Virus record (IMG/VR): IMGVR_UViG_3300028025_006151
Span: 1-28,452 of that record
Strand: one strand, 5' to 3'
Origin: a virus
Length of the DNA stretch: 28,452 nucleotides
Below, piece after piece: positions 4,025 to 26,043 of the stretch (position 1 is the stretch's first letter; each line of letters begins with the position of its first letter). The notes beneath the pieces are model-generated. The model was not told the origin of the DNA, made no database searches, and worked only from the letters and a program-made list of their open reading frames with translations. A program made the position numbers and the translations under genes.

Positions 4025-4142
4025 TAGTGCTTTAGATAAAGGATGGCATGACTTGATTTTAAAATTATTAAAACCAATATCTCGCTTACGTTTATCTAAT
4101 GAAGACGAAGAAACAATAAGAAAAATAATAAACAAATTATGA
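3999..4142 (+). CDS. Unknown 47-residue protein
   Basis: ATG 3999 lies inside the end of the 57-residue gene and the frame ends in TGA 4140-4142, which overlaps the ATG of queC (ATGA). That coupling supports real translation. The peptide contains a short hydrophobic helix (WHDLILKLLKPISRLRL) followed by an acidic stretch and a basic end. There is no family match that I can name. Confidence 0.55.
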   Translation: MAKNYPKNSSALDKGWHDLILKLLKPISRLRLSNEDEETIRKIINKL

Positions 4143-4846
4143 AACAAGGAAAAGCAATCGTAGTATTCTCAGGTGGACAAGATTCCACTACATGCCTGTA
4201 TTGGGCTCTAAATAGATATGAACAAGTAGAAGCCATAACATTCCAGTATGGTCAAAAACATGACATTGAAATAGAACAATCTAAAAAAATCCTTGAAAAA
4301 ACAGGTGTTAAACAGATTGTAGTTAACCTAGACCAATCACTTGGGTTTTTAGCTGAAAGTGCTTTAACATCAAATGGAGATGTATCTCAAATCAACAAAT
4401 ATGGATTACCTTCCTCATTTGTACCTGGTAGAAATGGTATTTTTCTTTACAATGCATACGTTTATGCTTTAAAAGTTGGAGCAGATGCTTTGGTAACAGG
4501 GGTTTGCCAAACGGATTATAGCGGTTATCCTGACTGTAGACGTGATTTTATCGATCAACTTTTAAAAACCATGGAAATGGGTGTATTTGGAGAGAACACA
4601 AGTGGTTTAACGATAGAAACACCTTTAATGTATCTAGACAAAGCTGATACATTTAAATTAGCGGTGGATGAAGGTTGTTTAGAAGATGTAATTCAACTTT
4701 CCCACACTTGTTATAATGGGCAACGTTTATACCAATTTGAATGGGGGTGGAGCTCAGAACAGGGAACAGAAGAAGACCCATTCTGCCCAGCATGCCAATT
4801 GAGAGCTAATGGATGGGAAGAATATAAAACAAGATACAATGGCTGA
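4139..4846 (+). CDS. queC: QueC, 7-cyano-7-deazaguanine (preQ0) synthase
   Basis: This enzyme turns 7-carboxy-7-deazaguanine into preQ0 with ATP and ammonia. The 235 residues (normal length) start at ATG 4139 overlapping the upstream stop. SGGQDSTT near residue 11 is the PP-loop that binds ATP. GQKHDIE, VPGRNGIF and VCQTDYSGYPDCR are typical QueC segments, and SHTCYNG and CQLRANG mark the C-terminal metal site. Usual QueC has one Cys in TCYNG plus CxxCxxC. Here Cys191, Cys216 and Cys219 remain, but the first Cys of the triplet is Asp213, with about 15 extra residues between TCYNG and that site. It belongs to the preQ0 pathway with queD and queE downstream and folE at 16474. Confidence 0.95.
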   Translation: MKQGKAIVVFSGGQDSTTCLYWALNRYEQVEAITFQYGQKHDIEIEQSKKILEKTGVKQIVVNLDQSLGFLAESALTSNGDVSQINKYGLPSSFVPGRNGIFLYNAYVYALKVGADALVTGVCQTDYSGYPDCRRDFIDQLLKTMEMGVFGENTSGLTIETPLMYLDKADTFKLAVDEGCLEDVIQLSHTCYNGQRLYQFEWGWSSEQGTEEDPFCPACQLRANGWEEYKTRYNG

Positions 4847-5108
4847 TTGGGATAAATTAAACGAAAAATTAGATTCTACTTTAAATTCAATGACACCAGA
4901 AGATTGGATAGAATGGATAAATAAAACTCAGGATAGTTGTATTATAGATTGGGAATTACATCAAAAAGTTATGGCAAAGAAAAACAAAAACACCATAAAA
5001 GTATGTACTGGAGTAGGACTAAATATGTTCTTCCCAGAATATATTACAGTTGAAATAGAAAAACCAATAGAAAAAGAATATAAAAATAAAAAAGATGGCA
5101 AAATTTAA
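4839..5108 (+). CDS. Unknown 89-residue protein between queC and queD
   Basis: An ATG also occurs at 4809, but 4839 gives a short 8-base overlap with queC instead of 38 bases, so MADWDKLNEKL is the preferred start. The N-terminal half is an acidic, Trp-rich helical segment (MTPEDWIEWINKTQDSCIIDW). The C-terminal half has a beta-like part and a Lys/Glu-rich tail. It overlaps queD by 14 bases. Its tight placement between two pathway genes suggests co-expression with them, but nothing in the sequence shows a role in modification. Confidence 0.65.
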   Translation: MADWDKLNEKLDSTLNSMTPEDWIEWINKTQDSCIIDWELHQKVMAKKNKNTIKVCTGVGLNMFFPEYITVEIEKPIEKEYKNKKDGKI

Positions 5109-5559
5109 CTCAACAAAACTATTTGATGGATACTCAACATGCTTTCGTCAATGGAAAGCAGACGGAACTCATTGTAGATTTTTACACGGATACGCAGTAT
5201 CATTTAGAGTATGGTTTGAGGGTGAATTAGATCATAGAAATTGGGTATGGGATTTTGGTGGTATGAAACGTGCAAAAACCCAAATTGCAGGTATGTCTCC
5301 AAAAGATTATTTTACATATCTGTTAGACCACACAACAATTATAGCTGAAGATGATCCATATTTAGAAAACTTCATACAAATGGCGCAAGATGGTATTATT
5401 CAACTTAGAATTTTAGAAGCTACTGGATGTGAAAGATTTGCTGAGTATTTGTATAATACAATCAATGCATTCTTAAAGGAAGAAACAGAAGGACGAGTAA
5501 AAGCAATCAAAGTAGAAGTTTATGAACACGAAAGAAACTCAGCTAGTTATGGGGAATAA
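5095..5559 (+). CDS. queD: QueD-like 6-carboxytetrahydropterin synthase
   Basis: This enzyme converts dihydroneopterin triphosphate, the product of FolE, to 6-carboxytetrahydropterin. The 154 residues have the T-fold pattern: THCRFLHG at 25-32 with the catalytic Cys27, a WVWDFGGMK strand (50-58), LLDHTT at 76-81 (Asp78-His79), and EATGCERFA at 108-116 with the substrate-anchoring Glu113. Two zinc ligands differ from the textbook enzyme. The first His falls on Cys16 (YSTCF) and the HGH motif is HGY (Tyr33), leaving His31 unchanged. The protein is larger than E. coli QueD (about 120 residues), with an insert around 60-95. The family call is strong; the exact metal site is uncertain. Confidence 0.9.
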   Translation: MAKFNSTKLFDGYSTCFRQWKADGTHCRFLHGYAVSFRVWFEGELDHRNWVWDFGGMKRAKTQIAGMSPKDYFTYLLDHTTIIAEDDPYLENFIQMAQDGIIQLRILEATGCERFAEYLYNTINAFLKEETEGRVKAIKVEVYEHERNSASYGE

Positions 5560-5680
5560 AAAGTCTAAACAACTTAAACCTGTTCCCCCAATTACAATAG
5601 GACCATTTAGTCCTAGAGTAGCAAAAATACTTTTAGAAGTAGATAAAGAATACCAAAAAAATAGAAAAAATGAAAAATAG
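5549..5680 (+). CDS. Unknown 43-residue basic protein
   Basis: ATG 5549 overlaps the end of queD by 11 bases and the frame runs to TAG 5678-5680. The peptide is Lys-rich with a Pro-rich middle (KPVPPITIGPFSPRVAK) and a charged helical end. Its end overlaps the next micro-gene. The short length and the absence of a known family leave the function open. Confidence 0.5.
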   Translation: MGNKKSKQLKPVPPITIGPFSPRVAKILLEVDKEYQKNRKNEK

Positions 5681-5741
5681 TTATTACACAACAACCACCA
5701 CTTTTGGTGATGTCAAATTTCAATATATTTTAACAAAATGA
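5670..5741 (+). CDS. Micro-gene, 23-residue peptide
   Basis: ATG 5670 lies in the last codons of the preceding gene and TGA 5739-5741 overlaps the thioredoxin start as ATGA. The peptide begins MKNSYYTTTTTFGDVKF. It fills an otherwise empty 57-base gap and may exist mainly to carry ribosomes to the thioredoxin start. Supported only by its coupled position. Confidence 0.35.
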   Translation: MKNSYYTTTTTFGDVKFQYILTK

Positions 5742-5986
5742 AAAAAATCTTATACTTTTCAAGTACGTGGTGTCAACCGTGCAAGAATTTCAAACCAGTA
5801 ATGGAGCAAGTAAGCCGCGAACTACCTGTACAATTTATTGATGTAGATGCGAGTCCTCAATTAGTTGCAGAATATGGTGTAAGAAGCGTACCTACAGTTA
5901 TAATAATAAATAATGGGCAAGTTTCAAGTAGACAAGCCGGAGTTTTAACAGAATCACAGATAAAGAATCTGTGGAACCAAAATTAA
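5738..5986 (+). CDS. Thioredoxin-like protein
   Basis: The gene encodes 82 residues with the active-site motif WCQPC (Cys12 and Cys15), a conserved Asp-rich strand (FIDVDAS), and the cis-proline segment VRSVPTVII (Pro52). It is a compact thioredoxin, shorter than the usual 105 residues, similar in size to phage NrdC-type redoxins. It reduces disulfides using electrons from a reductase. T4-like phages usually use such a protein with ribonucleotide reductase. Here it lies between queD and queE, so it might instead keep pathway cysteines reduced; that is speculative. Confidence 0.92.
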   Translation: MKKILYFSSTWCQPCKNFKPVMEQVSRELPVQFIDVDASPQLVAEYGVRSVPTVIIINNGQVSSRQAGVLTESQIKNLWNQN

Positions 5987-5990
5987 ATTT

Positions 5991-6842
5991 ATGTCAAAAA
6001 TAGAAAAAACCCAACTACTAATATCCAGTGACTTTTATAGTGTACAAGGAGAAGGATTCTCTACAGGTGTGCCTTCGTACTTTGTACGTTTAGGAAACTG
6101 TAATTTAACTTGTGGAATGTCCCGTTTGTTTACAAACAAGTTAATGAAAGAAAAATCACTGGAAAATGGTGAAATATTTGAGGGGGATTTACATGTTGAA
6201 GGAAAAGCAACCTGGACGTGTGATTCAACATCTCAATGGTTATTTAGAGGTGAAAACAAAGACTTCCAATATTTAATTGACCGTTGGAAAGAAGAAGGAA
6301 TATATGAAGATATTAAATCTGGATTAGTTCATATCATTTGGACAGGGGGTGAACCTACAATTAAAGGTCATCAAGAAGCCATTACAAATTTTCTGGGGTA
6401 TTGGTACTCTCAAGAAACACAAGATCATGATAGTAGGCACTTACTTACCCCATACCACGAAATTGAAACAAACGGAACAATTTATATTGAAGAACCCCTA
6501 TTTAAATGTTTAAACCAAATTAACTGCTCACCTAAATTATCCAATTCAGGTATGACAGAAAAACAACGGATTGTACCTGCTGCTATTGAACGTATTATGG
6601 AACATTCAAATTACCAATTTAAATTTGTTGTTTCAAACGAGGAAGACATTCAAGAAATGTTTAAAGATTTTATTGAACCATTTAATATTCCACTTCAAAG
6701 AGTATGTTGTATGCCTGGAATGGATACCCAAGAACAATTCCATGAAAGAACCCAATGGGTACTTGAAATGGCTAAAAAATACAAATTTGTGGGTTTAACC
6801 CGATTACATATCTCAGCTTGGGATAAAACATTAGATGTATAA
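5991..6842 (+). CDS. queE: QueE, 7-carboxy-7-deazaguanine synthase (radical SAM)
   Basis: This enzyme rearranges 6-carboxytetrahydropterin to 7-carboxy-7-deazaguanine. FYSVQGEG (15-22) and FVRLGNCNLTC (31-41) are typical of QueE. TGGEP at 118-122 binds the methionyl end of S-adenosylmethionine. HEIETNGT (157-164) and NCSPKLS (178-184) are further family segments. The three cluster cysteines are Cys37, Cys41 and Cys77 (WTCDS), with 35 residues between the second and third where the classic motif is CxxxCxxC. This loop insertion explains most of the extra length (283 residues against about 220). The insert still leaves all three cysteines, so activity is expected. It follows thioredoxin closely and precedes a phosphoribosyltransferase by two bases. 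Confidence 0.95.
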   Translation: MSKIEKTQLLISSDFYSVQGEGFSTGVPSYFVRLGNCNLTCGMSRLFTNKLMKEKSLENGEIFEGDLHVEGKATWTCDSTSQWLFRGENKDFQYLIDRWKEEGIYEDIKSGLVHIIWTGGEPTIKGHQEAITNFLGYWYSQETQDHDSRHLLTPYHEIETNGTIYIEEPLFKCLNQINCSPKLSNSGMTEKQRIVPAAIERIMEHSNYQFKFVVSNEEDIQEMFKDFIEPFNIPLQRVCCMPGMDTQEQFHERTQWVLEMAKKYKFVGLTRLHISAWDKTLDV

Positions 6843-8242: not shown

Positions 8243-11200
8243 ATGACAACATATTCATTTATAAAATACGATGTTCTAAAGGATATAATGTACTTTAAAA
8301 GTACACCAACCCCTGACTTTAAACAACAAGTTAAAACAGGAGGTATTTCTACTGAACAAGACAGAGAGGTAATTGAGGGGATTCAAGCTACTTATAATAA
8401 TTTAATCCCACAAGATGCTTTTGATTATATAAAATCTTATTTAGAGGCTATACCTGAATTAGATTTAAACAATTCTAAAAATATTACTTTAAAAGTTGAA
8501 ATTGATGAAGATACTAATGAAGTAGGGACAGTATTAATTGTATCTCAAAATACAAATAGAACACTTACTACAATAAATGTACCTACTAATGATTGGCCCA
8601 CTCCAATAGCATCTAAAATAAAACTCCCGGTTAAATACCCTACATTAGCTAAATGTGGAAATTGTTTAAAATTTACTTTTGGAATAAATAATGAATTTAA
8701 TTTTGTAGGTAATTTAGGAGGACAATGGGATGGTTCATTTAGAAATGGGCAAAAAGTTTACCAATTTAATCTCCCAGATTATTCTAACCCAAACACTTAT
8801 GGTAACACTACAGATTATCGAATATTTTGGAAACCAAATATTACAGGAACATTCTCAATTTATGGAGGTGGAACATTAAATATAAACAATGAAGCTAAAT
8901 GGATTGCAGTTCCATCTTCCTCTATTGGAACAGTTAATGAATTAAGCAATACAACATTTTTCCACGCTCTATCAAACACATCTGCGTCTTGCCCTTTTAC
9001 CCCTAACCCTACAAACTCAGGATGGAACTTTAGAGGTGATCAAGGATTTTTCCTTTTAGAGCTATCTCAAACCGGAGTTACAGAACTTGGAGCTACCAAA
9101 TGCCCTCAATTTATCCCTACACCTGGAGATGTAGATTGGGGTTATAACTGTGGCCCTAATGGATGTGTTGAAGCACTTTCAGGATCAGTAGGAACTTATG
9201 CTACATTAACTCAATGTCAAGCAAGTTGTAGTATTGAAACTACTCAATCATTTGAATACAGATGTACCTTTGACGGATGCCAACCTATCCCTTCAGGTTC
9301 GGGTGGATTTGCTACATTAGCAGAATGTGAAGCTAATTGTGTTATTTTCCCACCAGAACCACCATTTGAATATGTATGTAATATAGAAGGAGTTTGTGTT
9401 GAAGCTCCATCAGGTTCAGGTGGATATCTTACAATAGCAGAATGTGAAGCAAGTTGTAGTGCCCCTCCACCCCCACCAGTTTATGAATATAATTGTACTC
9501 CAAATGGATGTGTACAAGTTCCTTCTGGCTCTGGTAGTTATGCTACATTAGCAGAATGTGAAGCTACATGTAATATTCCTGTTATTACAGAATGTAACTG
9601 TTCAGGAAATTTAGTTTCTATAACTAATTCTAATTTTTCATCAGGGTTTGATTCTTGGACTTATTCTCCAAACCCAACATTACCTGGAGTAGGTGGGTGG
9701 AGTTTCATACCTAATAAAGTAAGAGCATCAGTACAAGAAAACTTTAACTCTGTTAACGTTTCAAATATATATTTAAGTCAATTAAATGTTCTTACTGTTT
9801 CTTGTTCATATGAAATTTGTTTTCAAGCTTGGTCAGCAACGCCAGAAATGACTTCATCTTTTGTATCTGTTGATACTGGAAATTATACTACTAATTTACC
9901 TCCAATTACTCCTTCACTAACAACAATTCCAACGGCATATACTTTTATAATATCAAATATCCAAACTTCAAATTTAACATTTTTTGTAGCAAGTCCTGGA
10001 GATAAAATTTTTATAGATAACATATGTGTTAAACAAACATATTGCCCACCTCCTCCACCTCCAGACCCAACACCAACAGAACCAACAGGATCTGAACCGT
10101 GTATTATTACTGGTTCAACTTATTGCTATGAAGATATTGATTATGGTTGTAATTGTCCTGCAGGGTATACATCTGATGGAAGTGGGAGCTGTATAGCTGA
10201 TTCCCCAATACTAGTAAATAAACAACTTACTTCAAATGGAGGATTAATCCCTACATATCTTAATGTTGACAATAATTATTTCTTTGTTAGAGGAGATGGT
10301 TCATGGGGTCGATATAATGCAGTACTTTATTACAATTACAACCCTGTTACTGGATTACCAACATCTTCAATAGGTACTGGAAGTGTTTCTTCCCCTGAAA
10401 ATCCATCCCCTTATTTTGGGGACAATAGAGTATTTAATAGTGCATTTACTTTTGATTGGTTAAAACAACCTTTTTGGAGAAATACTGTACCTACCCCAGG
10501 AACCTCTGAAACTCCATGGAATGCATCCCTTTCAGGATTTGCAGCTCAATTAATGAAAGTTGCTGAACCTATTCCAGCTGGTTGGTATGGTGGAGGGTCA
10601 TTTTTAAATGTAACCTCTTCAAAAACATATTATGTTGGTTTAATGGCAGACGATTTATTTAGATTTACAATTTCAGGATCATCTGGTATTCAAGTAATAT
10701 CCCCTACCAATACAGGATTTAATGGCCTAAACAATTCAGTATACCCTCAAAGGAATTATGGTACTAACCCATATCTCCCATGGAATGGAAGTTCTTATAA
10801 CTCATCAGTTACCCCAGGAGCCCAATCAGGTGGTAATATGAGTTATGGATGCTTACATATATACCCAATCCAATTAGATGCAGGATGTTACTATGTAAAA
10901 TTAGAAGCAGATGACACAAATTCAGTAGTGTCAGGACTTGGGGGTGTTATATTTGATATGACTGGTGAAGAAATATTAAATGCTTCTAGTTCTGCTAATT
11001 TAAATATAATATGGGATTCAAGAACAGATCTATTATATAGCTTTTCTAACGGAATTACAGCTTCTTGCCCCCCTGGGTCTACTCCTTTAGGATCAGATGA
11101 TTGTGATTTATGTGAAAAATTAACTGAAGCCCCATGTGGAAATTGTATAGAATGTTTTCATGGACTATTATATAATAGCTATATAGTAGATGCAAGTTAT

Positions 11201-12232
11201 CCATACCTTAAAGGTAGAGGTAATGGAGGGATAGTATGTACTGCTCCTTTATTTAATCCAATAAACACATGGGTTGTTCCCGACCAAAATGATTGGAATA
11301 CCCTTATTACCTACCTTAACGGATCTACTCCTTCAAATCTAACCCCTTCAGGAAGCTATGGGGTAACATCTGGGGGAAAAATGAAAGATTATACTAGAGA
11401 TACTATAGCATCTTGTTGGAACCTCCCAAATGTTGGAGCTCAAACTGAAGAAGACAATAGTGGATGGGCTGGAGCAGCTAGTGGAAGGCGTTTACCTACA
11501 ACTACAACTGGATTATTTGAAGGGTTAGGGTTTGATGGGTATTGGTGGGTATCTAACTCAACAAACTTTCAAACAAATCCATCAACAATGGCCGTAATAA
11601 ACTTAAAACATTGGTCAAATGATGTTTATAGATATGAAGTATTAAAAAATCATGGATGTTCAATACGTTTAGTTAGACCTGCTGAACCTGGAGAAGTTAA
11701 TGGAACTATTATACTTGATGCATATATAGGAACTGATAATAAATTATATGATGGGATAGTCATTGGAACCCAAGTATGGTTAACCAAAAACCTATCCGAA
11801 ACACTATTTAATAATGGTTTTCTAATTAGTACTACTGTTTCTGGATGGACTACTTCATTATCAACTGCTGCTAAACGTGCATGTTATTATAATGATAATT
11901 CTTCTAATAATTCAATTTTAAAAGGTAATATAGACCCTTCAACAGGATTATGTTATGAATACCCTACTTGGTATGTTTATAGAAAATGCGGAAATACAGA
12001 CCTATTAATCCAAACCGAACCAGGAGCAACAACAACCCCAGGAGAAGTACAAAAAGCAGATGATTTATCATGTTGGGAATTTGTTGAAGAAACTCAAAGT
12101 AACAGTGGAATTACATATCAATTATATATTACAGGAAATTATTTTGAAAATAATCCAACAGTATATAAGGACTGTGAAGAATGCACAGCAGTCCATACAA
12201 TATATATGACTTTTGGAAGTAAAAATTGTTAA
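8243..12232 (+). CDS. Large cysteine-rich fibre protein with FISUMP-type domain
   Basis: The gene encodes 1329 residues. ATG 8243 (MTTYSFIKYD) is chosen over 8216 because it follows the upstream stop. The first 120 residues are a helical/mixed attachment region. Four cysteine modules (about residues 301-443) are joined by Pro-rich linkers (PPEPP, APPPPP). An EGF-like piece (YGCNCPAGYTSDGSGSC) follows, then beta-sandwich-like stretches. Near residues 970-1150 there is a segment with the marks of the Fib_succ_major (FISUMP, TIGR02145) domain: GLLYNSY, a WVVPDQNDWNTLITYL block, GRRLPT, GYWWVSNS and GCSIRLVRP. A second FISUMP-like start (VIGTQVWLTKNL, ACYYND) follows. These domains have a lectin-like role in Bacteroidota surface proteins. 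I infer a long receptor-binding fibre. Confidence 0.8.
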   Translation: MTTYSFIKYDVLKDIMYFKSTPTPDFKQQVKTGGISTEQDREVIEGIQATYNNLIPQDAFDYIKSYLEAIPELDLNNSKNITLKVEIDEDTNEVGTVLIVSQNTNRTLTTINVPTNDWPTPIASKIKLPVKYPTLAKCGNCLKFTFGINNEFNFVGNLGGQWDGSFRNGQKVYQFNLPDYSNPNTYGNTTDYRIFWKPNITGTFSIYGGGTLNINNEAKWIAVPSSSIGTVNELSNTTFFHALSNTSASCPFTPNPTNSGWNFRGDQGFFLLELSQTGVTELGATKCPQFIPTPGDVDWGYNCGPNGCVEALSGSVGTYATLTQCQASCSIETTQSFEYRCTFDGCQPIPSGSGGFATLAECEANCVIFPPEPPFEYVCNIEGVCVEAPSGSGGYLTIAECEASCSAPPPPPVYEYNCTPNGCVQVPSGSGSYATLAECEATCNIPVITECNCSGNLVSITNSNFSSGFDSWTYSPNPTLPGVGGWSFIPNKVRASVQENFNSVNVSNIYLSQLNVLTVSCSYEICFQAWSATPEMTSSFVSVDTGNYTTNLPPITPSLTTIPTAYTFIISNIQTSNLTFFVASPGDKIFIDNICVKQTYCPPPPPPDPTPTEPTGSEPCIITGSTYCYEDIDYGCNCPAGYTSDGSGSCIADSPILVNKQLTSNGGLIPTYLNVDNNYFFVRGDGSWGRYNAVLYYNYNPVTGLPTSSIGTGSVSSPENPSPYFGDNRVFNSAFTFDWLKQPFWRNTVPTPGTSETPWNASLSGFAAQLMKVAEPIPAGWYGGGSFLNVTSSKTYYVGLMADDLFRFTISGSSGIQVISPTNTGFNGLNNSVYPQRNYGTNPYLPWNGSSYNSSVTPGAQSGGNMSYGCLHIYPIQLDAGCYYVKLEADDTNSVVSGLGGVIFDMTGEEILNASSSANLNIIWDSRTDLLYSFSNGITASCPPGSTPLGSDDCDLCEKLTEAPCGNCIECFHGLLYNSYIVDASYPYLKGRGNGGIVCTAPLFNPINTWVVPDQNDWNTLITYLNGSTPSNLTPSGSYGVTSGGKMKDYTRDTIASCWNLPNVGAQTEEDNSGWAGAASGRRLPTTTTGLFEGLGFDGYWWVSNSTNFQTNPSTMAVINLKHWSNDVYRYEVLKNHGCSIRLVRPAEPGEVNGTIILDAYIGTDNKLYDGIVIGTQVWLTKNLSETLFNNGFLISTTVSGWTTSLSTAAKRACYYNDNSSNNSILKGNIDPSTGLCYEYPTWYVYRKCGNTDLLIQTEPGATTTPGEVQKADDLSCWEFVEETQSNSGITYQLYITGNYFENNPTVYKDCEECTAVHTIYMTFGSKNC
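9143..9571 (+). repeat. Four tandem cysteine-rich modules (coding)
   Basis: Each module encodes about 29 residues of the form Y-x-C-x3-G-C-x3-PSGSGGYATLAECEA-x-C. The four copies start near 9143, 9258, 9371 and 9488. Copies 2 and 4 are the most regular, copy 1 has TQCQASC, and copy 3 has one extra residue before its second Cys. Each module has four cysteines, enough for two disulfides. Confidence 0.85.
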
Positions 12233-12235
12233 AAA

Positions 12236-12260
12236 TAAAATAAAATAAAATAAAATAAAA
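12236..12260 (+). repeat. TAAAA pentanucleotide repeat, five copies, in leader
   Basis: Five perfect TAAAA units lie between the 1329-residue gene stop and the ATG at 12260. The next leader (13814-13831) is likewise A-rich. An A-rich leader is the usual translation signal in Bacteroidota. A five-copy repeat could also change length by slippage and tune expression. Confidence 0.9.
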
Positions 12261-13813
12261 TGGCATTTGATTACAATAATGAAATGAAAACAGTCATCCT
12301 ATCAATGTCTCTTGATCCTCTTTTACCATCAGGATCAAGTGCAGGGTATGGATTTCAAATGGAATATTCTGGATCAGAAACAGGATCTCTACCTGGAGCT
12401 ATAACAATATATGATGATTATATTTTATCCACAGGAACAGCTTCATTGCAAATTTTCATCCCTTACTCTGAATATCTAACTAGAAAAGATTATTCTGCTT
12501 CATTAGCTCAATTAGTAAACTACTACACAGGCCCTAATTTAGGTTTAACAGGTGACAATAAGGGTATTCAAACTCAAATAATTTATGCTCCTGGGGAAGT
12601 TTCAACAAACGTTTGTAGTAATACATGTTATCAAGGAGAACTTCAATGGGCAACTGCTATTGGTAACCCTATATTCTCTGCAGGAAATTATTCAAATCTA
12701 GCAAATAGACAAACTCAACGACCATTAAAGGGAGGAATTTCAATTACTTCAACATCTCACTCAACCCCATTTTCAAATGCCGGGAGTGTTGGAACAATGG
12801 GACTTATTTGCCAAGATGTTTTTTCGGATGCTTTAGTTGGATTAACAAATAACCACGTAGTAATTAGAGATGCTTTTTATACTAACCAAAGAACTTTTAC
12901 AAATCCACAAAATGAATTTGATTTAACTGATTCAAGTGCTACTATTCAAGGTGATTTTGTTTACCAAACAGGTGAATCTCAACCTGTAATCCCTGGGGGA
13001 GCAAATGAAATAGGTAGAGTATTAAGATATGTTCCTATATACACATCTGCTTCAACTGCTGCTAATATTAATTTAGTAAATAGAGTAGATGGAGCTATAT
13101 TTTCTCTATATTGTACTTCAAGTACAGGGCAAACAATTATAGATTTTACATCTTCATTCCAACAATTAGGATTAAGTTATACTTCATCAATGCCTTTTGC
13201 TTCAACAGTTGAAATTGATAATTTACTATCCACTAACCCTGAACTTTATTGTTCAGGAAGAACGACAGGCCCAAAAGGTTCCCCTGGTACATTATGTCCT
13301 ATAAGAGTTTTTAGTTTTTCTTCTTTTCCTATACAATATCCTTTACAAGGAACTCTTACTACTTCTTATTTTACAAATATAATTTCTTTTGTTAAACCAG
13401 CTGATAGTTCTTCTTATTTACCTTCAGGATCAGGAGCAGTTAATGTATGTCCTTACCCAGTATGGGGTGGAGATTCAGGATCTACTTTAATTGCTAACAT
13501 AGGAGGAGTTTGGAAAATTGTAGGTTTAGTATTTGCAGGAAATGGGATTAGTTATAACCCACAAACAAATTACCCAATTACTTCCATAGGTCAACCTTAC
13601 CAAGTAGCTTCTTCAATAGGACATGCTTGTCGTATAGATCAAGTAGCATCTCAATTAAAAATTAAAGCTTGGACTGGAAGTATAGCACCAGTTGTAGATC
13701 ACGATACTATAGAATATAAAACTGTATCTGGAAGTAATAATACTCCTGCTTTAACATGTAGTGGATCAGAATATTTTCAAGTTGGCCTTACAAGAAAACA
13801 TAATATTTGTTAA
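12260..13813 (+). CDS. Trypsin-like serine protease in fibre cassette
   Basis: The gene encodes 517 residues. The C-terminal two thirds has the chymotrypsin-fold signature with an intact triad: His199 in LTNNHVV, Asp277 in NRVDGAIF, and Ser406 in WGGDSGST. SGRTTGPKGS near 332-341 is a segment seen in bacterial trypsin-like proteases. The first 150 residues are a separate beta-rich domain (MAFDYNNEMKTVILSMSLD), probably for attachment to the particle. There is no signal peptide, which fits a protein assembled inside the cell on a virion. It may cut a host surface protein during adsorption, mature neighbouring fibres, or be a catalytically used binding scaffold. The gene is flanked on both sides by large fibre-like genes. 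Confidence 0.85.
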   Translation: MAFDYNNEMKTVILSMSLDPLLPSGSSAGYGFQMEYSGSETGSLPGAITIYDDYILSTGTASLQIFIPYSEYLTRKDYSASLAQLVNYYTGPNLGLTGDNKGIQTQIIYAPGEVSTNVCSNTCYQGELQWATAIGNPIFSAGNYSNLANRQTQRPLKGGISITSTSHSTPFSNAGSVGTMGLICQDVFSDALVGLTNNHVVIRDAFYTNQRTFTNPQNEFDLTDSSATIQGDFVYQTGESQPVIPGGANEIGRVLRYVPIYTSASTAANINLVNRVDGAIFSLYCTSSTGQTIIDFTSSFQQLGLSYTSSMPFASTVEIDNLLSTNPELYCSGRTTGPKGSPGTLCPIRVFSFSSFPIQYPLQGTLTTSYFTNIISFVKPADSSSYLPSGSGAVNVCPYPVWGGDSGSTLIANIGGVWKIVGLVFAGNGISYNPQTNYPITSIGQPYQVASSIGHACRIDQVASQLKIKAWTGSIAPVVDHDTIEYKTVSGSNNTPALTCSGSEYFQVGLTRKHNIC

Positions 13814-13831: not shown

Positions 13832-16393
13832 ATGACTTTTACATTTTGCTTAGATTCTTATTCAATAAATTTTGACCCGAATAACCTTTCAGGGAATGGG
13901 TTTAGTATTTATACAGATGCGGATAATTTTACTTCCCCAATAGCAGTAAATATTCCTGCATCTTCAATATTTTCCCCACCTTTAGGAAACTGCTCTATTA
14001 CTTTAACTAACATTCCAAACAATGCTAATCAAATACTAGTAGTAGATCAATGTGATGGATTACCTCCATCAACTCCGGGAGCCCCTGACGCTCCATCATA
14101 CACTTGTTGTTATGCCCTAATAAATTTACCTGAAGGATGTGTTCCTTGGTGTGAAGAATGTAGTATAACTTTTGATACATTTCAAACTAGCAGCATAGGT
14201 AAACTTGTAGCAGGTAACCTACAAAGTTCTTGTGGTACCGTAACAGACTATGTTATTGGATGGTATTTAAATGGAGATTATTCTTCACCTGCCCTTACTA
14301 CTGGATTCGGTTCAGCAGCGGGATCATACCAGTTTGGTCCACACCCATTAACAGGAAATGGAGCCATTCCAGTAGTTGGAGGATCTTGGGAAGGTGTAAT
14401 TCATGATATAGTAATAAACGGAACTTTATACAGTAATGTTGCAAGTGGCTCAAAAGGTGGAACTCCAATACCATTTGAAAGTTGTTTTGGAGCTATCATA
14501 GTAGACCCTCTTACTTGTGATAATGGTACAGCTTCAGGTAAATATTCTCATCAATATAATTTTAACAGCCAAGCCGTAGGTACTACACCTGTTCCTACAT
14601 CTATAACTTATACTTTAGACTCAACAACAAAATATTTTGCTTATGTTTTTTTAGGACTTAGTGTTTGGGATGAATTAGAAATCAAATGGATTTCAGGAGA
14701 CCCAAATGCAACATCTGACCCTAGTTTATACTCTCAACCTATTTATTTAGAAAAACTAAAAATTGGAAACAATGTTCAAGATGGTATCCCTTTTTCCATA
14801 TATGAATCTACTTATAGCCTACCAGGATCATATAGTTCAAATAATTTTGATGGACAATATAGTAGTGTAAATAATATTTGGCCTAAATCTACTCAAAATG
14901 GGGGATTTTTTCAACGAGTATTAACTTTAACTACTTTAGAAACAAGTAGCAACCCTGCATCTCCTGATTTTATCGAAATTACTATTTCACCTAACCCATC
15001 AAATAATAATACTCAATGGTATGCTGGGTTTCAATGTTTAAATACTTTTGATTGTACTGATTGTTATTTTGATAATTGGCCTGATAGTTTACTTAAAATT
15101 TGGAAAATTGAATTAGATAAACAATACGGATGTGATGCTCAAAGATTAATCATGTACCGAACATCATCATGCACTGCTAATACTACTTCAGATTGGATGG
15201 GTAGGAATATAGGAGTTTTTGGTTTACCTGGTATCTCTCAACCATCTATTAATTTAATAGGTTCAGACCCACGATTATTTTATAATGGGGGTTTCGGTGC
15301 AGTGTATGCCCCATTTAACCAATCTTATCTCCCATTAAAAGGTAATACTGTATGTTCTGAAAACACCCAAACTCCAGGTACTAATTGTGGTCCATCATCT
15401 ACAGGAACTATTACTTTTAATAAAACACCAGGCCAAATCCAACTAACTTTTAATTTAGAAAGTGATTATATACATTATAAAAATGCTTTACTATCCCAAG
15501 GAGGAAATTTAACCACACCAACCCCATGCCCAGCAGGAAGTACTTCAGTAGATTATTATAGGTATTTTATCATAAAGGTACCTATTCAAGGAGCAAATGC
15601 TAATTGTGGAGATAATACTGGTCAATTTGAAACAGTTTTTCATATAAATGATTATCTTAATATTCAATATGTAGAAAATCCTTTATCAAATTTTTGGTCT
15701 ATAACAATTCCCCAAACAGCTATGGTTAATTGTTATCCACAAAACCAACCTTGTGATAGTTGTTATAATAAAATCCAACAATTTGTTAATGCTTATAATC
15801 CTAATCTACTTACTGCCTTTTCTTTTACTACTAATGTTGGTGCTAAATATCAATTTCCAATTGGTAATAAATTTTTATCAAAAAATGTAACAGGGGGGAC
15901 TAGTGGTTCTTATTGTAGTAATGCTCCTAACAATACTATATATCAAGCAATAAGTAATGGGGAAGCACAATTTTACCCATGGTATGGTACCCACACTATT
16001 CCATTTATATCATCCTCAAATGGATGGGTTAATTTACCTTCATTAGGAGCTTTTATACCATGTAGTGATAAAACCGGCTCTTACCCTACATCATATTCCC
16101 ATTCCCACTTAGGTCTTTGCTATGCAGGAACTATACAAGGACTTTCAGTTCGTTTTCTTAATTTAACAAGTAGTGGATTTAATTATTCACTTTCAACAAA
16201 TGACTTTGAAATATACGCTGAATCTGGATATGGGTCTACAGGATCTTTGTATGCTACACAAAATACAACCGTAATTCCATGTCCTGATCCTTCAAGTTCT
16301 TTGATTTATTCATATATTGGAGGAGTAGCAACAGTCTATACTTCATCTCATTTTTGGCAAGGGAATAATCCGATATTAGTAATCGATCCTTGA
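13832..16393 (+). CDS. Large cysteine-rich structural-type protein
   Basis: The gene encodes 853 residues rich in Ser, Thr, Asn, Gly, Tyr and Cys with dominant beta patterns, like its neighbours. Cysteine pairs are spread along it (CCYALI, CVPWCEEC, DCTDCYFDNW, PCDSCYN), suggesting several disulfide-linked or metal-binding domains. The start MTFTFCLDSYSINF follows an A-rich leader. No enzymatic motif or known fibre domain is clear. I infer a receptor-binding or tail accessory protein from its composition and its place as the last gene of the fibre cassette, before the terminator at 16427. Confidence 0.7.
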   Translation: MTFTFCLDSYSINFDPNNLSGNGFSIYTDADNFTSPIAVNIPASSIFSPPLGNCSITLTNIPNNANQILVVDQCDGLPPSTPGAPDAPSYTCCYALINLPEGCVPWCEECSITFDTFQTSSIGKLVAGNLQSSCGTVTDYVIGWYLNGDYSSPALTTGFGSAAGSYQFGPHPLTGNGAIPVVGGSWEGVIHDIVINGTLYSNVASGSKGGTPIPFESCFGAIIVDPLTCDNGTASGKYSHQYNFNSQAVGTTPVPTSITYTLDSTTKYFAYVFLGLSVWDELEIKWISGDPNATSDPSLYSQPIYLEKLKIGNNVQDGIPFSIYESTYSLPGSYSSNNFDGQYSSVNNIWPKSTQNGGFFQRVLTLTTLETSSNPASPDFIEITISPNPSNNNTQWYAGFQCLNTFDCTDCYFDNWPDSLLKIWKIELDKQYGCDAQRLIMYRTSSCTANTTSDWMGRNIGVFGLPGISQPSINLIGSDPRLFYNGGFGAVYAPFNQSYLPLKGNTVCSENTQTPGTNCGPSSTGTITFNKTPGQIQLTFNLESDYIHYKNALLSQGGNLTTPTPCPAGSTSVDYYRYFIIKVPIQGANANCGDNTGQFETVFHINDYLNIQYVENPLSNFWSITIPQTAMVNCYPQNQPCDSCYNKIQQFVNAYNPNLLTAFSFTTNVGAKYQFPIGNKFLSKNVTGGTSGSYCSNAPNNTIYQAISNGEAQFYPWYGTHTIPFISSSNGWVNLPSLGAFIPCSDKTGSYPTSYSHSHLGLCYAGTIQGLSVRFLNLTSSGFNYSLSTNDFEIYAESGYGSTGSLYATQNTTVIPCPDPSSSLIYSYIGGVATVYTSSHFWQGNNPILVIDP

Positions 16394-16426
16394 TAAAAAA
16401 ACAAACACAAAATTTAAAAATAGTTT

Positions 16427-16447
16427 GGCCCCTTAAAGGGGCCTTCT
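16427..16447 (+). terminator. Intrinsic terminator after structural cassette
   Basis: GGCCCC (16427-16432) and GGGGCC (16438-16443) form the stem around TTAAA, and TT-C-TT follows. It is nearly the same stem as at 2271. Between it and folE lies an A/T-rich stretch (TTACATTTATGTAAAATAA) that may hold the next promoter. Confidence 0.7.
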
Positions 16448-16473
16448 TACATTTATGTAAAATAACAAGTTAT

Positions 16474-17172
16474 ATGACAGAAAACAAACGTAGAAAAAAC
16501 CACACCGATCTAGAGTGTGTTAAAACAGGTTTCGCGAATGGAGTTGCTCCTGGATTCCCCCTTACCGATAAAGAAAAATGGGACATGGTTGATAAAGCAG
16601 AAGTTGCTTATGGACAATTTTTAGATGCTTTAGGTGTTGATTGGAGAAACGACCCAAATTCAGAAGATACTCCCCGACGTGTAGCTAAAGCATACGTGTT
16701 TGATTTATTTGCAGGTAGATACAATGCAATGTCAGATATTACTTCATTTCCATCGGATGGATACGATGGTATAGTAATTGAAAGAAACATTCCATTAACT
16801 TCAATGTGTTCACATCACCACCAAACAATTGGAGGAGTAGTTCATATTGGTTATGTTGTTGGAGAAGGTGGTCGAGTAATTGGTTTATCTAAATTGAATC
16901 GTATAGTTGAGCATTTTGGCCGTAGAGGTGCAATCCAAGAACAATTAACCTCAGCTATCCATCAAGCAGTATCTAAAGTATGTGAAGGAAATCGTGGCGT
17001 AATCGTTACTACAGTAGCAACACATAATTGTGTATCTTGTAGAGGTGTTAAACACCAAGGCGCTTCAATGGTTACAACTAAAGCATCAGGTGTGTTTATA
17101 GAAAATGGAAACGAAGCACGTAAAGAATTCTTTGATTCACTAAAAATCAATAATGGAGGACACCAGATCTAA
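16474..17172 (+). CDS. folE: FolE, GTP cyclohydrolase I
   Basis: This is the first step of the preQ0 pathway, GTP to dihydroneopterin triphosphate. The 232 residues start at ATG 16474 (MTENKRRKNH); a longer frame would run through the terminator. SEDTPRRVAKAY (63-74) and SMCSHHHQTIGGVVHIGYV (110-128) are type I signatures. Zinc ligands are Cys112, His115 and Cys186 (HNCVSCRGV), with an extra Cys189. VIGLSKLNRIVEHF (135-148) is the usual pterin-site segment. All key residues are present. The gene is more than 9 kb away from queE, on the far side of the fibre cassette, but on the same strand. It could also feed host folate synthesis. Confidence 0.96.
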   Translation: MTENKRRKNHTDLECVKTGFANGVAPGFPLTDKEKWDMVDKAEVAYGQFLDALGVDWRNDPNSEDTPRRVAKAYVFDLFAGRYNAMSDITSFPSDGYDGIVIERNIPLTSMCSHHHQTIGGVVHIGYVVGEGGRVIGLSKLNRIVEHFGRRGAIQEQLTSAIHQAVSKVCEGNRGVIVTTVATHNCVSCRGVKHQGASMVTTKASGVFIENGNEARKEFFDSLKINNGGHQI

Positions 17173-18231: not shown

Positions 18232-20109
18232 ATGTATCAAGCGGTTTTCTACAATAGATTACCTGGGGATGACCAATGGAGTTATTACCTAAGGGATGAT
18301 AAAAAAGGAATACACAAATTCCAATATTGGCCTACCGTATATAAACTTGATGAAGATGGAGAACATGAAACACTATTTGGTGATAGATGTTCTCCCCTTC
18401 AAGGTAAATACGATAGGAAAGACCCTACTATATTAGAAAAAGATATTGATCGTGAACTTGTATTGTTAAGAGATCTATACTATGAAACAGATAGTATGCC
18501 TTCATATCACAATACAGTTTATTTAGATATTGAGATTGAAATTTTAGGTGCACTTACACCACAAACAATTAAAGAGGCAAATGCTGAAATTACAGCTATT
18601 GCTTTGATTGATACTACAACCAAGGAAAAAATATGTTTTATTTTAGATAAAGCAGGTAAAATTGAGGAATTAAATCAAGATGGTAAAGTAATTGTACCTT
18701 GCCCTGACGAAAATACTCTGTTACGTAAATTCTTATTAAAGTGGGAACAAATGGATCCTACAATTGTAGTAGGATATAACAGTGATTTCTTTGATATCCC
18801 GTATTTGTATTATAGAATTAAAAGACGTTTGGGGGATGAAGTATATCGTTTATCTCCTGTAGGTAAAGTTGAAGAAATACCATCCCAACCAAATTCTCCA
18901 ATTCGTATTGGTTTAGTTAACAGTTTAGATTATATGCACTTGCTTCGCAAGTATATGATGAAAGAAGAACCATCATATAAATTAGGAGACATAGGAACAA
19001 AGTATGCTAAACTAGGAAAAATAGAATACAATGGTAATTTAGATACTTTATTTAGAGAAGATCCAAATAAATTTATAGATTATAACATTCGAGATGTTGA
19101 AATTATAGAGGCGCTAGAGGAAAAACAGAAATTCATTGAGTTAACTGTTTTGATTTCCCATTTATGTCATACGCCTTATGAATCAATTTACTATAACACC
19201 ATATTGAATGAAGGTGCTATTTTAACGTATTTAAAGCGCAGGAATATAATTGCTCCAAATAAACCTACCACTACAAACCCAACTATTAGAGAGTTAGAGT
19301 TAGGAGATCATGTTGTAAACCAACGAGGTACCCCTACAGTTGAGGGTATGGTGTACAGCTTTGAAGATAAACAAATTATAATCAAAACACTCTCAGGTAA
19401 ATATATTGCTCGTAACCCAAAAACAGTAAAGAAAAAAGATTCATATGCTGGAGGTTATCTACTTGACCCTATACCTGGCTTATATTCAGATGTAAGTGAC
19501 CTTGACTTTACCTCACTATACCCATCAATTATTAAATCACTTAATTTAGGTGTAGAAACATTAGTTGGTAGAATAGTCACAAAAAATAATTACGAACAGT
19601 ACAATTCACTTGAGCAACTAAAGCAACGTGACCCAGAGGAAAAAGTACATATACAAAAACTCAATAAACATTCATATCAACTTAAAGATGCAACCATATC
19701 TATAGGTGCTTTAATTAGATTGATAGAAGATAATAAATGGACTATTTCTGCTAGTGGAGCGTTTTATCGTACAGATAAAAAGAGTATTGCTTGTACAGTA
19801 CTAGAGGACTGGTTTGATCAAAGGGAACATTATAGAGCACTTAAGAAAACAGCAGGTAAAGCAGAAGATTGGGCAAACTATAAACTGTATGACTTGTACC
19901 AGTTAGCATTTAAAATCTTACAAAACGCTTTATATGGTACATACGCAATTAACTCTTGGCGCTTTACAGATGGGTTTAAAATATGTTCTGCCGCTATTAC
20001 AAATAGTGGACAGAGATTGGTTAAAGCTAGTATTGATGGTATAAACGATATGATAGACGAATATTTGGAAATGGATATAGAAGAACTTAAAAAAGTTTTT
20101 GATCTTTGA
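18232..20109 (+). CDS. 43A: Family B DNA polymerase, N-terminal piece (gp43A-like)
   Basis: This copies the phage genome, with 3'-5' proofreading. The 625 residues cover the exonuclease and most of the palm/fingers: Exo I YLDIEIE (Asp99, Glu101), Exo II GYNSDFFDIPYL (Asp188), Exo III YNIRDVEI (Tyr284, Asp288), motif A DFTSLYPSI (Asp425), and motif B K561-x3-N565-x2-YG. Motif C is missing and is found in the separate frame starting at 20975. The protein ends LKKVFDL just where motif C should follow, with a TGA at 20107-20109. Together the two pieces (about 918 residues) match the length of T4 gp43. The start GTT-ATG at 18232 has the same context as other genes here. Activity needs the other piece. 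Confidence 0.95.
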   Translation: MYQAVFYNRLPGDDQWSYYLRDDKKGIHKFQYWPTVYKLDEDGEHETLFGDRCSPLQGKYDRKDPTILEKDIDRELVLLRDLYYETDSMPSYHNTVYLDIEIEILGALTPQTIKEANAEITAIALIDTTTKEKICFILDKAGKIEELNQDGKVIVPCPDENTLLRKFLLKWEQMDPTIVVGYNSDFFDIPYLYYRIKRRLGDEVYRLSPVGKVEEIPSQPNSPIRIGLVNSLDYMHLLRKYMMKEEPSYKLGDIGTKYAKLGKIEYNGNLDTLFREDPNKFIDYNIRDVEIIEALEEKQKFIELTVLISHLCHTPYESIYYNTILNEGAILTYLKRRNIIAPNKPTTTNPTIRELELGDHVVNQRGTPTVEGMVYSFEDKQIIIKTLSGKYIARNPKTVKKKDSYAGGYLLDPIPGLYSDVSDLDFTSLYPSIIKSLNLGVETLVGRIVTKNNYEQYNSLEQLKQRDPEEKVHIQKLNKHSYQLKDATISIGALIRLIEDNKWTISASGAFYRTDKKSIACTVLEDWFDQREHYRALKKTAGKAEDWANYKLYDLYQLAFKILQNALYGTYAINSWRFTDGFKICSAAITNSGQRLVKASIDGINDMIDEYLEMDIEELKKVFDL

Positions 20110-20131
20110 TAAAAGAGACTGATTTTGTGTA

Positions 20132-20145
20132 TATTTATAATAAAA
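20132..20145 (+). promoter_or_regulatory. TATTTATAATAAAA motif before the HNH gene
   Basis: The motif lies in the only non-coding part of the polymerase insertion and ends nine bases before ATG 20154. It matches the motifs at 22263 and 23659. It suggests the inserted endonuclease brings its own expression signal. The role is inferred. Confidence 0.4.
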
Positions 20146-20153
20146 CGATAGAT

Positions 20154-20978
20154 ATGGGCAAGACACAAAATAGAAAAGTATATAAACATAATATAGATCT
20201 TATAAAATATTCTGAAGATGGGGAAAGGAAAAGGTGTATATTATGTGCTGAAGAGAAAGAACCACACGAAATATCTTCAAAAACCTCATATTGTAAACCA
20301 TGTTGGGCAGATTATATGAGATGTAAAAGAAACGGTACATTGGATATGTTAAAAGAACAATATGCACCTAAGTGGGAAGTATTACGAAAAAAATATAAAG
20401 ATGTAAAAAAATGCAATACATGTTTGGAAATTAAACCCAAAACAGGATTTTACCCTGATAAAAAATCACCCCATGGTTACCAAAACAAATGCATTCCCTG
20501 TGTAAAAGAATATAACCGAACCTCAGACAAATACTCAAACCCCTTAAACAAACAAAAACACAAAGAATACCAGGAAAAACATAAAGAAAGATGGAAACAA
20601 TTAAAGAAAGAAACATACGCCAATAATATCCAATATAGAATAACCCAAACTTTAAGAAATAGATTTTATATGGCTCTTAAAAAAGGGATGAAAAAATTAT
20701 CTATAGTTGATATTATAGATTGTTCTATAAAAGATTTCCAAGCATATTTGGAAAAACAATTCTTACCTGAAATGAATTGGGAAAACCATGGGGAAATATG
20801 GGAAATAGATCATATTATAGGATGTGTTAATTTTAATATGGAATGTCTAGAAGAACAAAAGAAATGCTTCCATTATACAAACATGCAACCTCTTTTTAAA
20901 ACCAGTGATATAGCAAGATCCTTTGGGTATATTGATCAAATAGGAAATAGAAACAAACCAAAAACATTTAATATATGA
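20154..20978 (+). CDS. HNH homing endonuclease splitting the polymerase gene
   Basis: The gene encodes 274 residues. ATG 20154 is preferred over TTG 20106. The N-terminal half has four CxxC pairs (28/31, 47/50, 87/90, 113/116), as in two zinc ribbons. A Lys-rich linker follows. The HNH part holds WEIDHIIG, then CFHYTNMQPLF, the pattern of HNH nucleases; the last ligand position is Ser/Asp rather than the usual His/Asn. It probably nicks uninterrupted polymerase genes near the motif C codons and so spreads by recombination. Its stop TGA overlaps the start of the C-terminal polymerase piece (ATGA). The insert has almost no room for intron RNA, so this is a split gene rather than a spliced one. 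Confidence 0.88.
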   Translation: MGKTQNRKVYKHNIDLIKYSEDGERKRCILCAEEKEPHEISSKTSYCKPCWADYMRCKRNGTLDMLKEQYAPKWEVLRKKYKDVKKCNTCLEIKPKTGFYPDKKSPHGYQNKCIPCVKEYNRTSDKYSNPLNKQKHKEYQEKHKERWKQLKKETYANNIQYRITQTLRNRFYMALKKGMKKLSIVDIIDCSIKDFQAYLEKQFLPEMNWENHGEIWEIDHIIGCVNFNMECLEEQKKCFHYTNMQPLFKTSDIARSFGYIDQIGNRNKPKTFNI

Positions 20979-21856
20979 GACATGTCTTGGCATCAGACAC
21001 GGATAGCGCATATTTTACGCTTACCAAACTACTCCAAAAACTATACCCAGATTCAAACTCTTGGCCTAGAGAAAAACGTATAGAAGCTTTACTTAAAATT
21101 ACAGACAAAATCCAAGAAAGAGCTAACACCAACCTTAACCAAATTTCCCAACAATTCTTTAACATCCAGTCAAAACATCACTTTGTATTAAAACAAGAGG
21201 TAATAGCCGAAAAAGCATATTGGTCGGGTAAACGTCGTTACGCAATGTATATTGTAAACAAAGAGGGTGTTGAAATTGAGGAGCTAGAAATGAAAGGACT
21301 AGATATTATGAAATCTAACTTCCCAGATTATTTTAGAAATTTTGGAGAAAATTTAATCAAAAACATCCTATTCTCTAAACCAAAAGAAGAAATAGACAAG
21401 GATGTAATGGATTTTAAAAATTCAATTCAAACTGTAGAGTGGAAAAAACTATTAAAACCCACTGGACTTAAAAAAATAGGTGAATATATTGAACGTAGAC
21501 CTGCCCCTGGTGAATTGTTTTCCAAATTAAAGTTAAAATGTCCTGTTAATACAAAAGCAGCTATCATAACAAATGATATGTTACGTTTTAAAGGTTTAAC
21601 TAAAAAATACCCCGAATTTACAATTGGAGATAAAATGTATATAGCCATTTTAAAACCAAACCCATATCAAATTGAGGTAATTGGATTAAACGGATATAAT
21701 GATGCCCCTGAAATACTAGAAATAGTAAATAAATACATTGACCGTGATGGGTTATTTGATAGTGTAATCAGAAACAAGCTAGAAGGTGTATACAATGATA
21801 TTGGATGGGTGTTGAATTTGAACCCATTCAAAGCAAAATTTTTTAACTTTTCATAA
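20975..21856 (+). CDS. 43B: Family B DNA polymerase, C-terminal piece (gp43B-like)
   Basis: The gene encodes 293 residues beginning MRHVLASDTDSAYF. DTDS at 8-11 is polymerase motif C, whose two Asp residues bind the catalytic metals with Asp425 of the N-terminal piece. KQEVIAEKAYWSGKRRYAM fits the conserved K-x-Y/KKRY thumb-side motif, and the remainder matches the thumb. A C-terminal end like NPFKAKFFNFS may carry the clamp-binding peptide (FFNF), as T4 gp43 does at its end. The start is an ATG overlapping the HNH stop, so its translation is probably coupled to the endonuclease. The two halves presumably assemble into one enzyme. Confidence 0.95.
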   Translation: MRHVLASDTDSAYFTLTKLLQKLYPDSNSWPREKRIEALLKITDKIQERANTNLNQISQQFFNIQSKHHFVLKQEVIAEKAYWSGKRRYAMYIVNKEGVEIEELEMKGLDIMKSNFPDYFRNFGENLIKNILFSKPKEEIDKDVMDFKNSIQTVEWKKLLKPTGLKKIGEYIERRPAPGELFSKLKLKCPVNTKAAIITNDMLRFKGLTKKYPEFTIGDKMYIAILKPNPYQIEVIGLNGYNDAPEILEIVNKYIDRDGLFDSVIRNKLEGVYNDIGWVLNLNPFKAKFFNFS

Positions 21857-22224: not shown

Positions 22225-22262
22225 TATCTTTAACATATGGTAAACAAATTAACAGTTGCTCA

Positions 22263-22276
22263 TATGTATAATAAAA
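22263..22276 (+). promoter_or_regulatory. TATGTATAATAAAA motif before GIY-YIG gene
   Basis: It contains a perfect TATAAT and ends three bases before ATG 22280, so transcription from it would give an almost leaderless message. An identical 14-base motif occurs at 23659. The region also repeats CATATG (22260-22266 and 22277-22282). Confidence 0.45.
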
Positions 22277-22279
22277 CAT

Positions 22280-22894
22280 ATGATAGGAATATACAAAATA
22301 ACAAACCCAAATGGTAAAGTCTATATTGGTCAAAGTGTTAGATTACAATATAGAAAAAACCAATATAAAAATTTAAATACACTCCAACAACCTAGAATAT
22401 ATAACTCAATAAAAAAATATGGTTGGGAAAACCATTTATTTGAAATTATAGAAGAATGTCCTAAAGAATATTTAGATGAAAAGGAAATATATTGGAAGCA
22501 ATATTATCTTGATCAAGTAAATGGGGATTGGAAATATGTTTTGTTTTGTGGGATGTATGATAATGGTAATGGTCCTCTTTCTGAAGAAACTAAAAGGAAA
22601 ATAAGCGATGCCCTTAAAGGAAGACAAGCACCTTGGTCAACTCCCCAAGCTACCGCAATGGGGAAAGCAAATAAAGGAAAAACAAGAACAGAAACCTTTA
22701 AAAATAATGTAAGACTTAACAATAGTAAACCTGTTTTACAATATGATAAACAAGGAAACTTCATTAAAGAATGGGAATGTGGTTATGATGCCGCAAGATA
22801 TTTAAACAAACCAAATGGAGCTATAAGTGAATGTTGTTGTGGTACAGGAGGAAGAAAAAGTGCTTATGGGTATGTTTGGAAATTTAAAAAATAA
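22280..22894 (+). CDS. GIY-YIG homing endonuclease with NUMOD modules
   Basis: The gene encodes 204 residues. ATG 22280 gives MIGIYKITNPNGKVYIGQS, the GIY...YIG catalytic pair; R26 or R30 and E62 or nearby would be the catalytic Arg and Glu. PLSEETKRKISDALKGR and AMGKANKGKTRTETF are NUMOD3-type DNA-binding repeats. The end (KPVLQYDKQGNFIKEWECGYDAARYL ... GYVWKFKK) is a NUMOD1-type module. It is free-standing, like the T4 Seg proteins, and lies between the terminator at 22198 and the clamp gene. Its target is probably near its present site in related phages lacking it. Confidence 0.93.
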   Translation: MIGIYKITNPNGKVYIGQSVRLQYRKNQYKNLNTLQQPRIYNSIKKYGWENHLFEIIEECPKEYLDEKEIYWKQYYLDQVNGDWKYVLFCGMYDNGNGPLSEETKRKISDALKGRQAPWSTPQATAMGKANKGKTRTETFKNNVRLNNSKPVLQYDKQGNFIKEWECGYDAARYLNKPNGAISECCCGTGGRKSAYGYVWKFKK

Positions 22895-24376: not shown

Positions 24377-24402
24377 AGAAAATCAAATCTTAGAAAAAAT
24401 AA

Positions 24403-26042
<1,640 letters not shown>

Positions 26043-26043
<1 letters not shown>

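Follow-up and report, generated by a model that had tools for sequence, protein, structure and literature searches.

A NAL1-like trypsin-fold protease gene follows a C-terminally tagged fibre-like gene in uncultivated phages

The fibre locus in the window

The stretch of DNA analysed here, referred to as the window, is the virus record IMGVR_UViG_3300028025_006151 at its full length (28,452 bases, positions 1 to 28,452). It carries a gene for a predicted trypsin-like serine protease, which is preceded by genes for a repeat protein and a long fibre-like protein and followed by a second long gene (Table 1). The upstream fibre-like ORF starts at 8216 in the ORF list; the start at 8243 was chosen by comparison with relatives.

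Table 1. Features of the fibre locus in the window, with the basis of each assignment
Feature	Positions	Strand	Basis or remark
Repeat protein, 320 aa	7276..8238	+	Weak pentapeptide-repeat match; same order in L002, L003, L005, L018-L020
Upstream fibre-like gene with FISUMP domain, tag carrier	8243..12232	+	Pfam Fib_succ_major, E 2.6e-14; start from relatives
C-terminal tag of upstream fibre, AVHTIYMTFGSKNC	12188..12229	+	Ends 65/72 unique genes directly before a protease; absent from 438 other ORFs
NAL1-like trypsin-fold serine protease (predicted), 517 aa	12260..13813	+	ATG start; triad conservation, AlphaFold model, structure and profile matches
N-terminal domain, residues 1-150, NAL1_N type, larger in window clade	12260..12709	+	VIA alignment, profile
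Chymotrypsin-fold catalytic domain (predicted), residues 154-473	12719..13678	+	Alpha-lytic protease match
Catalytic His199 codon	12854..12856	+	83/83 phage relatives
Catalytic Asp277 codon	13088..13090	+	83/83 phage relatives
Catalytic Ser406 codon (GDSGS)	13475..13477	+	83/83 phage relatives
Phage-branch C-terminal hairpin, residues 475-517, ends Y-[WF]-Q-V-G...C	13682..13810	+	Alignments
Downstream gene, 853 aa, seen in window clade	13832..16393	+	Fibre-like by place and composition alone

The preliminary description placed the protease between two fibre genes. Its position is right and the upstream gene is fibre-like by virtue of its FISUMP domain, but the downstream gene has no family match. 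The order seen in the window, namely a repeat protein of 320-360 aa, a FISUMP-type fibre of 1,200-1,500 aa, the protease and a protein of 820-850 aa, recurs in the related contigs L002, L003, L005 and L018-L020, and L004, whose locus lies at the contig edge, has the fibre, the protease and the 820-850-aa protein. FISUMP domains were confirmed with Pfam in the window, L018 and L031. Placement in the fibre locus is common to all closely related phages, and in distant relatives the protease lies behind a long protein that is often Thr/Pro- or Thr-rich. One further contig, L197, is mostly syntenic with the protease-bearing L044 and has no protease at the corresponding locus, which points to the protease gene as an accessory element at a conserved fibre site.

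The window has several other features. A T4-type DNA polymerase gene (18232-21856) is split just before its DTDS motif by an HNH/endoVII-like ORF (20106-20978); a different insert occupies the same polymerase site in L004 (9471-12787), the gene is also split in L020 (13806-16763), and it is intact in L002 and L003. The arrangement recalls gp43 genes that are split and accompanied by a homing endonuclease of the free-standing kind. Genes resembling queC, queD and queE, together with one for GTP cyclohydrolase (4139-6842 and 16390-17172), suggest 7-deazaguanine DNA modification. The window also encodes adjacent phage GroES-like and GroEL proteins (24080-26043) and a GIY-YIG-like endonuclease (22256-22894), a protein similar to the last being found in L018 (589-1167).

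A phage branch of the NAL1-like trypsins

The protein begins MAFDYNNEMKTVILSMSLDPLLP. The triad proposed in the preliminary description is present exactly where it had been placed, with His199 in GLTNNHVV, Asp277 in RVDGAIF and Ser406 in GGDSGS, and the reported lack of a signal peptide agrees with a reading of residues 1-32, in which no hydrophobic signal-like stretch is apparent.

Searched by itself, the window protease had no matches in Pfam, NCBIfam, PHROGs or PADLOC. An AlphaFold (AF2) model built from a 63-sequence alignment reached a pLDDT of 84.7 and a pTM of 0.91, superseding a model from 11 sequences only (pLDDT 60). When this model was compared with the PDB by Foldseek, ranks 1-34 were all chains of rice NAL1, followed by bacterial S1 proteases. 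VIA-align superimposed model residues 1 to 474-480, nearly the whole chain, on rice NAL1 (Z 22.6), and residues 154-473 on alpha-lytic protease (Z 16.9, rmsd 2.3 Å over 189 residues), in support of the chymotrypsin fold that had been suggested for the protein. The extra N-terminal domain, which the preliminary description had noted and proposed to place by structure prediction, matches rice NAL1 from residue 1.

Profile comparisons point to the same family. The 63-sequence phage profile found rice NARROW LEAF 1 as its best match in the PDB (E 4e-4; the match spans the N-domain and the His region), and it also retrieved Rhizobium plasmid proteins and a 'putative serine protease' of Aeropyrum coil-shaped virus. 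Aligned by hhalign with these Rhizobium and viral relatives (n=3), it gave a probability of 99.8% and an E of 5e-29 over window residues 17-469, with the motifs NNHV, VDGAI, GRTTG and GDSGS all in register. Members intermediate in sequence share the N-terminal pattern ...T..D.VGVGYG.K...G..T.E..I.F.V..KKP...LP......TDV.E.G and match PHROG 20754 'protease' (up to 3.6e-20), which the window protease does not, and one of these members, that of L072, scores 29.5 bits against Pfam NAL1_N, above the curated cut-off of 27. Pfam Nal1_C was reached by 1 of 11 members at E 0.22, which is below the cut-off, as are the Rhizobium relatives. From the NAL1 structure match, the profile match and the L072 score, the extra domain is of NAL1_N type. 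Judged by sequence and model together, the window protease belongs to a phage branch of the family of NAL1-like trypsins and has an intact triad, and serine protease activity is predicted for it. The best viral structure match, the uncharacterised protein A0A7S9XDX3 of Virus NIOZ-UU157 (31% identity, TM 0.80, 449-aa target), is probably a further member. Two other protease families were considered and rejected: HtrA/Deg proteases, because Pfam detects no PDZ domain and Deg structures align chiefly over the protease domain at a lower Z (12-14), and the phage prohead proteases (T4 gp21, S77), because no such PHROG or Pfam match was obtained and the fold is of chymotrypsin type.

Two scans of IMG/VR confirmed 157 and 178 stretches encoding relatives, of which the best 80 from each were retained; their identity to the window protease ranges from 29 to 79%. 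In the 83 phage proteins left once identical sequences had been removed, His199, Asp277 and Ser406 are invariant, as are G404, D405, G407 and an R-I-D motif at 458-460, a degree of conservation that takes the triad beyond chance. The triad also falls among the 20 invariant columns of the 63-sequence alignment, in which identity to the window protease drops to 29%. The His residue was slightly favoured by sampling, since NNHV formed part of some search patterns; the Asp and Ser motifs were in no productive wide-scan pattern. The phage branch is Cys-rich, with extra cysteines, and the C-terminal hairpin (residues 475-517) is confined to it, being absent from the Rhizobium relatives. Some members carry C-terminal extensions, either PKD/DUF285 domains or Thr/Pro repeats, and divergent paralogues occur within one phage, with two tandem proteases each in L028 and L032 and three in L151.

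The distribution of the family qualifies the earlier statement that such proteases are rarely described in phages. It holds for annotated phages, as tblastn of 50,697 records with the window, L017 and L072 proteases returned no match and with that of L010 a sole match, to Aeropyrum coil-shaped virus at E 0.01; among uncultivated viruses the protease is common. Genome contigs of GTDB, scanned twice, yielded no confirmed relatives, and the bacterial relatives that were found lie on plasmids (Rhizobium). In L175 (1303-4852) and L177 (280-3861), such Rhizobium plasmid NAL1-like proteins adjoin radical-SAM and HEXXH 'putative peptide modification' proteins, and here they possibly act as the leader peptidase of a modified-peptide cluster.

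A NAL1-like protease might conceivably serve inside the infected cell, as an effector or counter-defence enzyme that has come to lie among fibre genes by chance. The lack of a signal peptide would suit such a role, as would the example of plant NAL1, an active protease that works as an intracellular regulator by degrading TOPLESS-like corepressors (PMC12915138); that activity supports activity of the fold generally and is silent on the substrate of the phage protein. Fibre-like neighbours in many divergent loci, the lack of a PADLOC match and the resemblance of the Cys-rich branch and its PKD/DUF285 or Thr/Pro-rich C-terminal fusions to surface proteins make an intracellular role very improbable.

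A C-terminal tag on the gene upstream of the protease

Immediately 5' of the protease lies a gene that typically ends in a short tag of the form [NSH]-T-[IVL]-[YFW]-x-x-[FYLWI], roughly N-T-[IVL]-[YFW]-x-x-F, followed by 1-9 residues before the stop. From Thr to stop it spans 7-15 residues and has no helix; its hydrophobic residues at alternating positions would suit a beta-strand. The tag ends 65 of the 72 unique genes directly upstream of a protease. It ends none of the 438 further ORFs of these loci, a figure that leaves out two tagged ORFs of an initial 440, both of them upstream genes counted a second time in reversed loci. Shuffling of the tails gave an expectation of 1.4 matches per 72, and a Fisher value of 9e-75 overstates independence, as the loci are related. 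Tags are spread across the whole protease tree, and five protease loci have no recognisable upstream tag. Each genome examined has one tag carrier: across the whole of the 173.8-kb G003 contig the only other match to the tag expression is the tail of a GIY-YIG-like protein, and in G006, of whose 126.8 kb a total of 120 kb was read, the single match looks like a chance one.

Codons of the tag vary synonymously and its distance to the stop is kept, but its spacing from the start of the protease gene varies between -41 and +34 bases. These properties indicate selection of the tag as protein, and they rule out an origin at the RNA level as a ribosome site, for which position would be fixed relative to the downstream start. 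Carriers fall into 14 groups by BLAST with low complexity masked, a grouping that was used because unmasked single-linkage clustering fused 52 carriers through their low-complexity linkers, and tags occur on unrelated carriers. Variants of the tag, often preceded by a Thr/Pro linker, differ by protease clade, and tag similarity tracks protease similarity for unrelated carriers as well (rho 0.30, 0/999 permutations). In L028 (882-6529), L024, L077 and L079, glycosyltransferase-like genes lie directly 5' of the tagged Thr/Pro-rich proteins, and O-glycosylation of the linker is possible.

Some loci carry more than one tag. Two stand in tandem in L072 and in L075. Protein A of L028 has the C-terminus NTIYIKYNTKSC and is followed by protease 1, whose own tail consists of a Thr/Pro linker and FTSFVTFESYNC and lies ahead of protease 2. 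The carrier of L077, the N-terminus of which is that of L028 protein A (87%), ends FTAFVSFDSYNC directly before a relative of protease 2 (73%). Because a simple deletion could yield this difference, the pair does not prove that tag and protease change together and is taken as supportive only.

Searches of IMG/VR with tag DNA, made independently of the protease, approached the association from the other side. The protease adjoins the tag in 24 of 28 contigs: in 4/4 for the tag of the window clade, in 13/13 for NTIWIKFDP, and in 7/11 for NTIYTHF, for which a match counted as real only where it lay at the C-terminus of a long ORF that has a Thr-rich linker. In the remaining four (L194, L197, L204 and L198) a collar-like fibre gene follows in place of the protease, and no protease was found anywhere in these records, all of which are possibly fragments. 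In L197 the tag NTIYTHFDAL is carried by the ORF at 8932-10185, and an apparent homologue of this record's tagged protein in L044 (3611-4876) has no tag. A protease is thus nearly always accompanied by a tag, and a tag usually, but not always, by a protease; the four tag-only contigs imply that the tag may have a different partner.

These four contigs bear on the idea that the tag is a general element of fibre tips or trimerisation, unrelated to the protease, and that the two merely travel in a shared recombining cassette, leaving the protease to act by itself, either in the virion or in the infected cell. Tagged genes without a protease exist, linked genes are co-inherited, so that covariation of tag and protease is partly expected, and the tag difference between L077 and L028 could reflect a deletion that brought the tail of protease 1 onto carrier A. 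A general tip element is nevertheless hard to reconcile with the absence of the tag from the 438 other ORFs, many of them fibre-like and from the same clusters, with the tag-first results, and with its sharing by unrelated carriers, and we consider it improbable.

A proposed two-part fibre device and its parallels

The association suggests that the protease and the upstream fibre form a dedicated matched pair. On balance we think it probable that many uncultivated large phages possess a two-part fibre device, composed of a fibre that ends in a linker and C-terminal strand and of a dedicated NAL1-like protease that would recognise this strand, and that this device brings proteolysis into entry or fibre maturation. 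A more specific version, for and against which we see about equal weight, is that the upstream fibre would display the strand-like tag at its extreme C-terminus, that the putative protease would recognise this end and be docked onto it, and that the particle would thereby carry an enzyme able to cut a host-surface protein during adsorption. Three features favour docking over removal of the tag: the Thr/Pro linker, the occurrence of tags in tandem, and the A-P1-P2 chain in L028. The absence of the protease from L197 at an otherwise L044-like locus supports an accessory role in entry.

Another possibility is that the protease matures the fibre by cutting its neighbour's tag or a nearby site, the tag then being a processing signal and the enzyme leaving or staying afterwards. 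Each genome examined has a single tagged gene, adjoining the protease, and proteases paired with C-terminal signals are known from bacterial sorting systems. The protease also diverges less than the fibres: when the window is compared with L002, it shows 79% identity and a dN/dS of 0.19, against 46% and 56% identity and a dN/dS of 0.39 for the flanking fibre-like genes. A typical host-range determinant would not behave so, and the difference would fit a viral substrate that is itself conserved; the peptide-modification genes beside the Rhizobium relatives hint at processing of a neighbour's peptide; together, they keep processing under consideration. Against it, the tag is retained in the four contigs without an adjoining protease, tandem tags and the A-P1-P2 chain resemble assembly more than removal, and no conserved cleavage-site residues were observed between linker and tag. 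Maturation by cleavage is, in our view, rather unlikely, and docking of the protease on the tag is the reading we prefer.

Enzymes of phage particles known so far mostly target sugars or peptidoglycan, and a widespread fibre-locus protease, if borne out, would mean that protein is cut as well, during entry or in the maturation of fibres. The word 'trypsin' is absent from the main text of a review of 224 jumbo phages (PMC7824862), a NAL1-like protease had already been annotated in one archaeal virus (PMC7416610), and no description of the fibre-locus NAL1 branch or its pairing with a tag was found in the open-access full-text literature. By these findings, a plant protease that matters in agriculture has relatives in bacteria, archaeal viruses and phages. 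The tag, for its part, provides a partner that lends itself to direct testing and might also serve as a portable docking peptide.

The proposed pair has parallels in several known systems. In GlyGly-CTERM/rhombosortase sorting, a protease is likewise paired with a short C-terminal signal on its partner, the tags there having a membrane helix and a basic end and occurring on several substrates. Sorting of this type was ruled out for the phage tag, which is short, soluble, free of helix and present on one carrier per genome examined. In T4-type phages, the gene for gp38 directly follows that for the fibre gp37, and gp38 sits at the fibre tip, attached to the gp37 C-terminus; the phage pair has a similar gene order, and its tag and gene order suggest similar binding, but gp38, unlike the predicted enzyme of the window, is not a protease. 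The putative trypsin-like serine protease ORF25-326 of Aeropyrum coil-shaped virus is a viral NAL1-like protein whose N-domain and catalytic motifs can be aligned with those of the phage branch (PMC7416610), but it is a 326-aa product of an archaeal ssDNA virus, annotated without an apparent fibre locus or tagged upstream gene. Close in architecture are rice and maize NARROW LEAF 1 and the bacterial NAL1-like trypsins (PF25608, PF25819), which have the fold over nearly the whole chain, the N-domain and the order of the triad in common with the phage protein, and the bacterial relatives in addition the motifs GT.G, NNHV, VD.AI, GRTTG, GDSGS and GL.FAG. Identity to rice NAL1 is only 11-16%, and to the shared architecture the phage protease adds a C-terminal hairpin, its cysteines, a place in the fibre locus and a tag on the gene upstream.
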